From contig NZ_CP046804.1 in assembly GCF_009763805.1 (NCBI RefSeq), positions 496,001-560,000 on the forward strand: a DNA stretch of 64,000 nt, read 5' to 3'. Below the pieces are notes generated by a model that was given only the letters and a program-made list of their open reading frames with translations, made no database searches and was not told where the DNA came from. Both the position numbers and the translations under genes were made by a program. The stretch comes from Vibrio cidicii (GTDB lineage: Bacteria; Pseudomonadota; Gammaproteobacteria; Enterobacterales; Vibrionaceae). Positions 1,707 through 64,000 of this stretch are shown here, in pieces (position 1 is the stretch's first letter; each line of letters opens with the position of its first letter).

Positions 1707-2466
1707 ATGTCTCAAGCTGTTTTCCACTTAGGTGTAACTGAAGCCGATCTCAATGGTGCGACTCTGGCCATTATCCCTGGCGATCCAGCGCGCGTACAAA
1801 AAATTGCAGAAGAGATGGAAAATCCAGTATTTCTAGCCAGTCATCGTGAGTATACGCTGTACCGAGCAGAGTTAGACGGAAAAGCTGTGGTTGTGTGCTC
1901 TACCGGTATCGGTGGTCCATCAACGTCTATTGCGGTTGAAGAGTTAGCGCAACTTGGCGTACGTACTTTCCTACGCGTTGGTACGACTGGCGCGATTCAG
2001 CCACATGTGAATGTTGGCGACATGATTGTGACCACAGGTTTCCGTGCGTCTTGATGGGGCCAGCTTGCATTTCGCGCCAATGGAATTCCCTGCTGTTGCC
2101 GATTTTGAAGTTGCAACAGCAATGAAAGCGGCGGCTGAAGAAAGTGGTGCAACGGTACACACTGGTGTAACTGCATCGAGTGATACTTTCTACCCAGGTC
2201 AAGAGCGTTACGACACTTTCACCGGACGAGTAGTACGCCGTTTCCAAGGCTCGATGAAAGAGTGGCAAGACATGGGCGTGCTGAACTTTGAAATGGAATC
2301 AGCAACGCTATTGACCATGTGTGCGAGTTCTGGCTTACGTGCGGGCTGTGTTGCTGGTGTGATTATCAACCGTACTCAAAAAGAGATCCCAGATCACGCA
2401 ACGCTGAAAGAAACCGAAGCGCGTTCAATCAAAGTGGTTGTGGAATCGGCGCGTAAGATGCTGTAA
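1707..2466 (+). CDS. udp: Uridine phosphorylase, frameshifted as read
   Basis: Cytoplasmic uridine phosphorylase of the NP-I family, which splits uridine with phosphate into uracil and ribose-1-phosphate in pyrimidine salvage. The first frame carries the phosphate-site region IIPGDPARV and STGIGGPSTSIAVEELAQLG. The second carries TASSDTFYPGQERYDT and the nucleoside-site FEMESATLLTM. The first frame stops at 2054 just after VTTG, whereas family members continue with SVRLDGASLHFAP, which is present one frame over. Removing one T from the TTT at 2039-2041 (GGTTTCC to GGTTCC) joins the halves into a 252-residue protein, the usual family length. A good Shine-Dalgarno (AAGGAG) precedes the ATG. The gene sits between a CRP site and a strong terminator. 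The break is probably a sequence error and not a true pseudogene. Confidence 0.93.
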
Positions 2467-2495
2467 TCCAGCGTTTTATTCCATAGCAGAATTGT

Positions 2496-2530
2496 AAAAC
2501 CCGGAGCCAAAACTCCGGGTTTTCTTTTTC
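2496..2530 (+). terminator. Rho-independent terminator of udp
   Basis: An 11-bp stem (2496-2506 with 2513-2523), rich in GC at the loop side, is followed by a T-rich tract. It lies 30 bases after the udp stop and faces the convergent DUF1887 gene. Confidence 0.85.
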
Positions 2531-2541
2531 CAAGCAACAAA

Positions 2542-61016: not shown

Positions 61017-61020
61017 TCCT

Positions 61021-61710
61021 TTAACTTTTGGGTAGTTCAGTCCACTCTCCAGGCTGTAATTCACCCAGTGTCATCTCACCGATTGAGTAACGAATTAGAC
61101 GCAGTGTCGGAAAGCCAATATGAGCCGTCATGCGTCTGACTTGTCGGTTGCGTCCTTCGATGATGGTAATGACCAGCCAAGTGGTAGGAATCGAGGCTCG
61201 AAAGCGCACAGGGGGATTTCTTTCCCACAACTTAGGCTCTTGCATGATCTCTACTTTGGCGGGCAAGGTCATCCCATCTTTAAGTTCAACGCCCTGGCGA
61301 AGGGGCTCGAGTTGTTCCTCTGTCGGAACGCCTTCTACTTGTACCCAATAGGTTTTCGGCGATTTCGATTGCGGCTGTGTTAACTTGGCTTGCAAAATGC
61401 CATCGTTAGTGAGAACCATCAGTCCTTCACTGTCTCTGTCAAGCCGACCTGCGGCGTACACCTCTTTAATTGGGATGTAGTCAGCGAGCGTTTTTCTTCC
61501 GTCTCCGTCGGTAAATTGACTCAGAGTGTCAAAAGGCTTGTTAAACAAAATCACTTTGCGTTCGGCCGTTTTTAGTGCAGCTTTGGGCTTTTTATTCGCC
61601 CGACGCAGCTTCATTGAATCAGATGCCATGCCTTTCTTGGCGTGTTTAAATCGCGATTCTGCCTGTTCGCTCTTAGAGCGAGAGGAATGACGACTAGAAC
61701 GGAATGACAT
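61021..61710 (-). CDS. rluE: 23S rRNA pseudouridine(2457) synthase RluE
   Basis: A 229-residue enzyme of the RsuA/RluE family converting U2457 in 23S rRNA to pseudouridine. The catalytic Asp lies in YAAGRLDRDSEGLMVLTND; RNRQVRRMTAHIGFPTLRL is the conserved C-terminal part. The N-terminal ~60 residues are basic and Ser-rich (SFRSSRHSSRSKSEQ), as in E. coli RluE. The start at 61710 (MSFRSS) is chosen because it matches that pattern; a longer in-frame ATG at 61758 adds an unconserved piece. Confidence 0.9.
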   Translation of the reverse strand: MSFRSSRHSSRSKSEQAESRFKHAKKGMASDSMKLRRANKKPKAALKTAERKVILFNKPFDTLSQFTDGDGRKTLADYIPIKEVYAAGRLDRDSEGLMVLTNDGILQAKLTQPQSKSPKTYWVQVEGVPTEEQLEPLRQGVELKDGMTLPAKVEIMQEPKLWERNPPVRFRASIPTTWLVITIIEGRNRQVRRMTAHIGFPTLRLIRYSIGEMTLGELQPGEWTELPKS

Positions 61711-62021
61711 GTTAACCACCTTGCAAAAATGTAAATGAACTGTGTGTATAAGTTCCAACTTATTCTGAAATCAGCTATGATTTGCGCGCCTTAGACTAGC
61801 AAAAGCGTCAGAATGATAGACTAATTCGCGCGATTTGTTTAATTATAAACGTGCACTCATGGATTTAGAGCGACAAACTCAAATACGCATTTTCGAAAAG
61901 AACAATCGAGTGCCAAACGGCGATTTGTACTTGGGGAGACACTGATACTCAGTTTAGTGCAAAGCGCGTCAATTCCACACGCCATGGGTTACTGTGGCGT
62001 ACCGAAATATAGGGAAATTTC
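61711..62021 (+). other. Intergenic region rluE-icd
   Basis: About 310 bases without a gene. A 6-bp inverted repeat (61979-61984 with 61995-62000) lies just before icd. No firm promoter can be named by eye. Confidence 0.4.
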
Positions 62022-64000
62022 ATGCCTACAGAAAAACCTACAATTGTCTATACCATTACCGATGAAGCACCAGCACTAGCAACCTATTCTCTGTTGCCTA
62101 TCATCCGCTCGTTTACCGCATCGTCGGGTATTAATGTTGAAACCCGCGACATCTCTTTGGCTGGACGCATCATTGCAAACTTCCCTGAGCATTTAAAAGC
62201 CGAGCAGCAAATCGGTGATGCACTGACAGAGCTAGGCGAAACTGGCACAAACAGCAGAAGCGAATATCATCAAACTGCCCAATATTTCTGCTTCGATTCC
62301 TCAATTGAAAGCGGCGATAAAAGAGTTGCAGGACAAGGGTTATGATCTGCCGAATTACCCTGAAGAGCCAAGCACCTACGAAGAAGAAGCGATTAAAGCT
62401 ACCTACGATAAAATCAAAGGCAGTGCTGTAAACCCAGTGCTTCGTGAAGGGAACTCCGATCGCCGTGCACCACTTTCGGTGAAGAACTATGCGAAGAAAA
62501 ATCCCCATTCAATGGGCGCATGGTCATCTGATTCAAAGTCGCACGTTTCCAGCATGGACGAGAAAGATTTTTTCGGCACTGAAAAGTCAGTCACGGTGAA
62601 TGGCGCAACTAAAGTAAAGATTGAGTTTGTTGGCCAAGATGGTAGCAGCAAGGTGTTGAAAAAAGAGTTCGCACTGCAAGATCAAGAGATCATCGATAGT
62701 GCGGTGCTGAGTAAAAATGCGCTAGTGACTTTTTTTGAGAAAGAGATCGCCGAAGCAAAAGCTCAAGATGTGCTCCTTTCTCTGCACATGAAAGCCACCA
62801 TGATGAAGGTCTCCGACCCGGTTATTTTCGGTCATGCAGTGAAGGTGTACTACAAAGAGGTGTTTGATAAGTACGGAGAACTGTTTGCTAAGCTCGGTGT
62901 GGATGTGAATAACGGTTTAGGCGATGTGTACGCTAAGATTGCCTCTTTACCGAATGCGCAGAAAGAAGAGATTGAAGCTGCCATCGCGGCCGTTTATGAG
63001 AAACAACCTGCACTGGCTATGGTTGACTCTGACCGTGGTATTACCAACCTCCATGTACCAAGCGACGTTATTGTTGACGCTTCAATGCCAGCGATGTTAC
63101 GCGCTTCGGGGCAAATGTGGGGACCTGACGGCAAACAAAAAGACACCAAAGCGATGATCCCAGATCGTTGTTATGCTGGCGTATACCAAGCCGTCATTGA
63201 TTTCTGTAAGCAGAATGGCGCGTTTGATCCTACGACAATGGGTAGTGTACCAAACGTCGGATTGATGGCGAAGAAGGCAGAAGAATACGGTTCTCACGAT
63301 AAGACCTTCATTCTCGATGCAGCAGGCGTAGTACGTGTGGTTAATGAACAAGGTACTGTGCTTCTTGAACAAGTGGTTGAGGAAGGTGATATCTTCCGTA
63401 TGTGCCAAGTTAAAGACGCACCTATCCAAGATTGGGTGAAGTTGGCGGTGACACGTGCTCGCGCGACAGGCGTTCCTGCGGTATTTTGGCTTGATCAAGA
63501 GCGTGCTCACGATGCAGAACTTATTAAGAAAGTCACTACTTACTTGGCAAATCATGATACTCAAGGTTTGGAAATTAAGATCTTGTCGCCAGTAGAAGCT
63601 TGTCAGTATTCGTTACAAAGAATGAAAGCGGGCCAAGATACTATTTCAGTCACGGGGAACGTGCTACGTGACTATCTAACGGACTTGTTCCCAATTCTAG
63701 AACTCGGTACGTCGGCGAAAATGCTCTCAATCGTCCCGTTGATGAACGGCGGTGGCTTGTTCGAGACGGGTGCTGGCGGCTCAGCACCAAAACACGTGCA
63801 GCAAGTGCAAAAAGAGAATCACTTACGCTGGGATTCTTTGGGTGAGTTTCTTGCGCTGGCAGCTTCGCTTGAGCATTTGAGCGTGGTCACTGGCAACAAA
63901 AAAGCACAAGTTCTCGCCGATGCGTTGGACAAAGCGACTGGAGAGTTTCTTGATACCAACAAGTCACCATCACGCAAAGTGGGTGAGCTTGATAACCGTG
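62022..64000 (+). CDS. icd: Monomeric NADP-dependent isocitrate dehydrogenase, 3' end outside window, frameshifted as read
   Basis: The monomeric type (about 740 residues) of isocitrate dehydrogenase, decarboxylating isocitrate to 2-oxoglutarate in the TCA cycle; this is the type found in Vibrio. The start MPTEKPTIVYTITDEAPAL, NVETRDISLAGRIIANFPEH, and later VYYKEVFDKYGELFAKLGVD, MVDSDRGITNLHVPSDVIV, LMNGGGLFETGAGGSAPKH are family blocks. As read, the frame stops at 62345 after GETGTNS; the correct frame is LAQTAEANIIKLPNIS. Removing one A of GAAAC at 62239-62241 gives DALTELGELAQTAEAN. The right end is cut at the window edge, about 659 residues present. Confidence 0.95.

Follow-up and report, generated by a model that had tools for sequence, protein, structure and literature searches.

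The question raised by this locus is why gene after gene in it seems to change reading frame at the same five-base word. The window, by which we mean the whole stretch of 64,000 nucleotides analysed here (C2:496001-560000, contig NZ_CP046804.1), belongs to the 4.75 Mb genome of Vibrio cidicii, referred to as G000 and assembled in two contigs (C1 and C2). A first-pass annotation of the window had listed ten genes interrupted at GAAAC or GTTTC and had ascribed them to an insertion error that recurs systematically at some of the GAAC sites, rather than to ten pseudogenes. That proposal is borne out by the single word, the single direction, the reach across the genome and the breakage of mukB, clpA, tolQ, icd and dndC. 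As to the cause, we consider it very probable that the frame changes are assembly errors that arise from phosphorothioation of GAAC/GTTC, so that single-molecule sequencing of native DNA reports one base too many at the phosphorothioate (PT).

Breaks were called with intact open reading frames of relatives as tblastn queries, a break being one query that continues in another frame, and the motif GAAAC/GTTTC played no part in the calling. The queries were drawn from 80 loci of relatives and from syntenic stretches of other genomes; the YeaH of the window is at most 90% identical to those of the best 80 loci of relatives, nearly all of them Vibrio. The coding DNA covered in this way amounted to 119.7 kb in C2:496001-700000 (204 kb, including the window) and to 109.8 kb in C1:560001-640000 together with C2:2000001-2080000 (160 kb, the initial 20 kb without cover). 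Over these approximately 230 kb, 30 of the 31 simple +1 breaks lie at GAAAC/GTTTC, so the scan for frameshifts enriched at GAAC that the first-pass annotation had suggested found the enrichment and not its absence, which would have spoken against the proposal. The first region gave 22 break clusters, 19 of which are simple shifts, namely 16 of +1 (16/16 at the motif) and three of -1 (all in homopolymers), and of the 15 simple +1 breaks in the other two regions, 14 are at the motif, with one break of -1 besides. A random interval of these widths holds GAAAC/GTTTC with a probability of 0.029, which puts 16/16 at about 2e-25. The three calls in C2:496001-700000 that are not simple shifts are mukF, a second placing of the break at window position 7796, and the gene of a dnd-linked methyltransferase, where near-identical DNA of another genome, G062, is one base short at the GAAAC of G000. 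Among the genes broken in G000 are mukB, clpA, tolQ, a PurR-like repressor gene, icd and dndC, and the covered coding DNA holds a break about every 7.6 kb, which by extrapolation would give several hundred breaks in the whole genome. The raw density of the five-base word was tried as a signal and rejected; the window holds 2.42 GAAAC/GTTTC per kb against a mean of 2.47 across 80 Vibrio loci, and the effect is invisible.

A system that could mark these sites is encoded on the same contig. C2:653704-671891 encodes DptF, DptG, DptH, a PT-binding restriction endonuclease, a DGQHR protein, DndE, DndD, DndC, DndB and a dnd-linked methyltransferase. NCBIfam models score over the cut-off for DndB, DndD, DndE and the larger of two DndC pieces, and also for the cognate restriction genes dptF, dptG and dptH beside dnd (TIGR03238, TIGR03236 and TIGR03237). 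Judged from these matches, G000 encodes a DndBCDE plus DptFGH phosphorothioate system, and backbone sulfur is predicted at GAAC/GTTC, the PT motif of Salmonella SenC87 and E. coli B7A (PMC9521924, PMC9069010, PMC6459556). All 25 query comparisons place the junction of the two dndC pieces at GTTTC, and if PT is the cause, this break must itself be false, because DndC is needed for making PT (PMC9069010). An order-wide DndC search (22 of 394 over the cut-off) gave, among the matches listed, no split DndC other than that of G000. Against the near-identical DNA of G062 (16.3 kb, 89-98% identity), G000 has five lone extra bases, four of them inside GAAAC/GTTTC, and at C2:625624 it reads GAAAC where G062 reads GAAC. 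Separately, the 89-98% identity of the G000 dnd region to that of G062 over 16.3 kb, compared with roughly 76-80% for yeaH with relatives, points to a likely recent horizontal transfer of the region.

The breaks in the window are listed below in window coordinates, where the number after each word is the start of the motif and the Pfam family checks were made on the intact proteins of relatives.

1707-2466, plus strand: udp-like gene (phosphorylase superfamily) in two frames, with the change at GTTTC 2038; PF01048 on a relative.
6530-7837, plus strand: lipoprotein gene with a frame change at GAAAC 7796, from few queries at 62-65% identity; no Pfam family.
18480-19045, minus strand: small gene in two frames, with the change at or near GTTTC 18603 (interval 15 nt wide); no Pfam family.
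29130-30669, minus strand: spoVR in two frames, with the change at GAAAC 29317 (122 queries); SpoVR PF04293 on a relative.
32000-33934, minus strand: yeaG (PrkA family) in three frames, with +1 at GTTTC 32884 (123 queries) and -1 in a C6 run at 33368 (120 queries); PF08298 and PF06798 on a relative.
36551-38433, plus strand: chemotaxis-receptor-like gene whose frame shifts by -1 in the G5 run at 36792, a break of a different type from those at GAAAC.
44103-45603, plus strand: gene that the first-pass annotation named poly-Gly lipoprotein, in two pieces of different frames that meet at GAAAC 44705 (28-43% identity); no Pfam family on a relative.
51988-52909, minus strand: xthA in two frames, with the change at GAAAC 52165; exodeoxyribonuclease III family on another relative.
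56744-58853, minus strand: dinG-like helicase gene in two frames, with the change at GAAAC 58194; PF13307 on a relative.
60477-61016, plus strand: DUF2057 gene with a candidate frame change at GTTTC 60492, only the downstream piece matching a relative; PF09829 on a relative.
62022-64000, plus strand, reaching the end of the window: icd (monomeric isocitrate dehydrogenase) in two frames, with the change at GAAAC 62238; TIGR00178 on a relative.

All ten five-base words are thus present, and the motif-blind search found a +1 frame change at eight of them, although at 18603 the queries yield either +1 or the equivalent -2. Of the remaining two, the break at 44705 is seen at low identity, and that at 60492 is a candidate. 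Its claim that the deletion of one base repairs each gene fails for yeaG, where the second break in the C6 run is unaccounted for; this break and that at 36792 were absent from it and were found by tblastn. The names COG3014 and PilZ, given to the lipoprotein gene at 7796 and the small gene at 18603, found no Pfam confirmation. The three -1 changes of the wider region, in C6 (33368), G5 (36792) and A6 (C2:598590), look like the usual residue of a long-read-only assembly, and they hint at the class of platform but not at which one.

A single motif and a single direction would also be expected of programmed +1 frameshifting at GAAAC. Such frameshifting is extremely improbable here, since the orthologues are read in one frame, the word occurs in both orientations with respect to the gene (9 and 7 cases in G000), and 302 other GAAAC/GTTTC in the covered coding DNA are without any break. 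At spoVR, the longer word is common only to one other genome, the Vibrio G010, among the contexts printed.

If PT is the cause, the error should recur in other bacteria with dnd genes. DndC is over the cut-off in 29 of 227 Vibrio genomes, and besides G000 we scanned 39 Vibrio genomes, 19 from the other 28 dnd-positive ones and 20 that lack a DndC above this cut-off. The scan mostly spanned 20 kb around yeaH and in some genomes 80 kb or more. The dnd-positive G010 shows the same pattern; in 68.3 kb, 15 of its 15 simple breaks are +1 at GAAAC/GTTTC (14 distinct sites), and its mukB has two further +1 breaks at the motif. Genes broken in it include mfd (twice), lolD, msbA, spoVR, xthA, ruvC, ruvB and cydA, and the identical orthologous GAAC of spoVR is hit in both G000 and G010. 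Two more genes are broken in its dnd locus, dptH and dndD by length and place, where Pfam shows only general HerA and AAA domains. Across 488.7 kb of the 20 Vibrio genomes that lack a DndC over the cut-off, not a single +1 break falls at the motif, and 162.9 kb of G234 and G055, scanned in the same way, contained no simple break. One -1 break each in G101 and G109 has GAAAC in its interval; being of the opposite direction, these were not counted.

The gene mukB allowed a wider view. A MukB search of the 227 Vibrio genomes, from which small second pieces could escape, was followed by inspection of the 13 genomes with more than one match, and a +1 break at the motif was found only in G000 (one) and G010 (two). 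The mukB breaks of G032, G105, G108, G109 and G117 are -1, that of G078 is a run of N, and no break was called in G046, G153, G213 and G226 despite the multiple matches. In G121 (L208/L212), a two-contig genome without DndC over the cut-off, mukB has a +1 break at AGATCTCAGAGC, which is possibly the scar of another modification.

With regard to assembly quality, G010 is estimated at 95% completeness and 5% contamination, values that might stem from split genes. The contamination estimates of the two affected Vibrio genomes, both in two contigs, are 3.23 (G000) and 5% (G010); such values may reflect split marker genes and not foreign DNA, and they may serve as a flag for such assemblies.

The same extra base occurs in a second genus. 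A dndC match is present in 204 of 5426 E. coli genomes. Strains W5-6 and W2-5 are dnd-positive, and our tally took core genes annotated as frameshifted with one base more than MG1655. W5-6 has one extra base in yjgN, rplI, yjfM and dcuS (133.4 kb aligned), and W2-5 in paeA and qorB (140.1 kb aligned), each at GAAAC/GTTTC; for paeA, the MG1655 reference differs by one further base. The ProQ gene next to the dnd locus of W5-6 shows the same kind of difference from AR436. BE2-5, a third isolate from the same study and method, has none in 112.4 kb, and its leuX site carries other restriction genes where W5-6 and W2-5 have dnd. All three, whose reads belong to BioProject PRJNA495707, were sequenced by single-molecule real-time (SMRT) technology, according to a text that names neither PacBio, nanopore nor Illumina (PMC7076156). 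Since the SMRT-sequenced W5-6 and W2-5 carry the error, it occurs on SMRT data. The tally left out mobile and fragmentary genes as well as a yjgL-like gene that is frameshifted alike in W2-5, AR436 and BE2-5. Also uncounted is an intergenic extra G of W5-6 that creates GTTTC (L277:9307) and is common to BE2-5; yjgR of W5-6 has a longer G run at the gene end, a coding difference of another kind that is not annotated as a break. Neither the scores across the dnd locus of E. coli (60 of 225 records listed) nor five dnd regions of E. coli were decisive by themselves. A PT-binding restriction endonuclease gene adjoins dnd in G000 (L084:6677-7555), and another lies at leuX of BE2-5 (L285:12063-12935), the place where W5-6 and W2-5 carry dnd.

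The identity of the broken genes bears on whether the extra bases are real insertion mutations of the organism, for example by replication slippage at sulfur-marked sites. The same words would be involved, and PT could in principle stall replication. However, mukB, clpA, tolQ and icd in G000, lolD, msbA, mfd, ruvB and ruvC in G010 and the ribosomal gene rplI in W5-6 would then be broken in living cells, and lolD and msbA are essential in E. coli. In addition, a truly broken dndC would end PT, and nearly one insertion per 7.6 kb would ruin several hundred genes. Real insertions are therefore very improbable and nearly excluded already.

The bases around the hit sites offer a further comparison with PT, for which a preference for C at -2, A/C at -1, T/G at +1 and G at +2 has been published (PMC9521924). 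Our site lists were fixed before this preference was consulted, although the flanks of the first list had already been seen. The test set 44 hit sites of G000 and G010 against 1389 intact GAACs in covered coding DNA of C2:496001-700000 and of the G010 scan stretch only. A/C at -1 was found in 34 of the 44 hit sites and in 613 of the 1389 intact ones, T/G at +1 in 33 and 687, and G at +2 in 26 and 439, respectively. A/C at -1 together with T/G at +1 characterizes 27/44 hit sites compared with 295/1389 intact sites (Fisher p = 2e-8). Three of the four published preferences are thus matched, and that for C at -2 is not. When the 14 sites of G010 are taken by themselves, the joint -1/+1 test is the one with a clear outcome (p = 0.003), and that of the triple is borderline.

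The mukF break, at CA-GTAAC-TG (placed by eye), fits a minor PT motif, GTAC, which is reported among PT-modified sites at 6% in an earlier study, partly as a possible enzyme effect (PMC9521924). Because GTAC has no run of equal bases, the misreading would not be a homopolymer lengthening. Rather, from this one case, the base next to the sulfur bond seems to be called twice, namely the first A in GAAC, the first T in GTTC and the T of either strand in GTAC.

We infer the following course of events. The organism's DndBCDE would mark the DNA as its known relatives do, which replace a non-bridging backbone oxygen with sulfur between G and the following A or T in a minor fraction of GAAC/GTTC sites, and native DNA would then have been run on a single-molecule long-read platform with inadequate correction. 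Where modification is heavy, the base next to the sulfur bond on its 3' side would be reported twice, turning GAAC into GAAAC and GTTC into GTTTC in the consensus. On SMRT, a slowed polymerase may sample the same nucleotide twice, and on nanopore, an altered dwell time may have the same effect. The fraction of GAACs hit is about 2% (16 vs 816 intact in G000, 14 vs 573 in G010), below the 12% of SenC87, and perhaps only the most heavily marked sites tip the consensus.

Several results weigh against a sulfur bond as the cause. One +1 break of G000 was placed off the motif (L238:19159); it lies about 17 bases beyond a GTTTC in a 63-70% identical stretch, where by eye that GTTTC is possible, and it was tallied as a miss. 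The 18 other dnd-positive Vibrio genomes scanned are free of +1 breaks at the motif over 379.8 kb, and so are 17 further dnd loci, ten from Vibrio and seven from other genera, whereas the locus of G010 shows three. Among few-contig Vibrio genomes, 1 of 17 dnd-positive and 0 of 20 dnd-negative ones are affected, a difference that alone is not significant. In E. coli the error is infrequent (4 in 133 kb for W5-6, 2 in 140 kb for W2-5), and the dnd status of BE2-5 was judged from its leuX site only. Among the flanks, C at -2 is not enriched (12/44 vs 366/1389) and G at -2 is (21 vs 283), and in E. coli B7A no flank preference was seen (PMC6459556). Since dnd genomes without the error exist, dnd alone is insufficient, and platform or polishing must matter.

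That most dnd-positive genomes lack the error would also suit a systematic base-calling error at GAAC unrelated to PT, either from base methylation covering GAAC or as a plain context error of instrument or polisher, and motif-bound errors from modification are known on nanopore (PMC10687267). Nevertheless, we regard such an error as unlikely. A plain context error should reach dnd-negative assemblies, but the 20 Vibrio genomes without DndC over the cut-off and BE2-5 (112 kb) show none, and the affected assemblies G000, G010, W5-6 and W2-5 are all dnd-positive. Both the flanks and the GTAC exception agree with the data on PT, and as for methylation, the listings of the E. coli dnd loci inspected do not include the dnd-linked methyltransferase of G000.

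Phosphorothioation of GAAC/GTTC thus remains our preferred cause, and it connects with work on PT detection from native reads, by nanopore errors in Salmonella (PMC9069010) and by SMRT polymerase kinetics (PMC9521924), which concerns the same motif and modification. As here, a minority of GAAC/GTTC was disturbed in single molecules, with about 4% flagged by nanopore and 12% mapped by EcoWI-seq. Those signals were drawn from raw reads with controls, whereas here a fixed one-base insertion stands in the deposited consensus and breaks genes. The words 'insertion' and 'frameshift' have no occurrence in PMC9521924, and a scar in the consensus is not described in the passages of PMC9069010 and PMC9521924 drawn on here. 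Modpolish (PMC10687267) likewise deals with lineage-specific modification that causes motif-bound errors in long-read-only assemblies, but its motifs are GCAGC and GCTGG, its correction works on base alleles without regard to indel gaps, and its text contains none of the terms phosphorothio, dnd and GAAC. In literature searches on PT with sequencing errors and on systematic nanopore errors, none of the listed titles and abstract openings reports such a scar (other papers drawn on are PMC8569181 and PMC5356067). It is already known that modified DNA disturbs long reads, and in the sources covered here we found no report of a fixed one-base PT scar in deposited assemblies.

We think it likely that deposited long-read assemblies of dnd-positive bacteria hold a fossil map of PT sites, in which heavily modified sites are marked by a duplicate of the base on the 3' side of the sulfur bond. 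If so, the PT motif, its flank preference, the minor motif GTAC and the choice of sites across species, as at the GAAC of spoVR, would be readable from FASTA alone without raw data, and the scars would be a PT readout for collections that have none. Native long-read genomes of PT-bearing bacteria could also hold hundreds of false pseudogenes, dnd genes included, by which studies of gene loss and defence would be misled. A combination of +1 breaks at GAAAC with dnd genes would be a simple quality test for such genomes.

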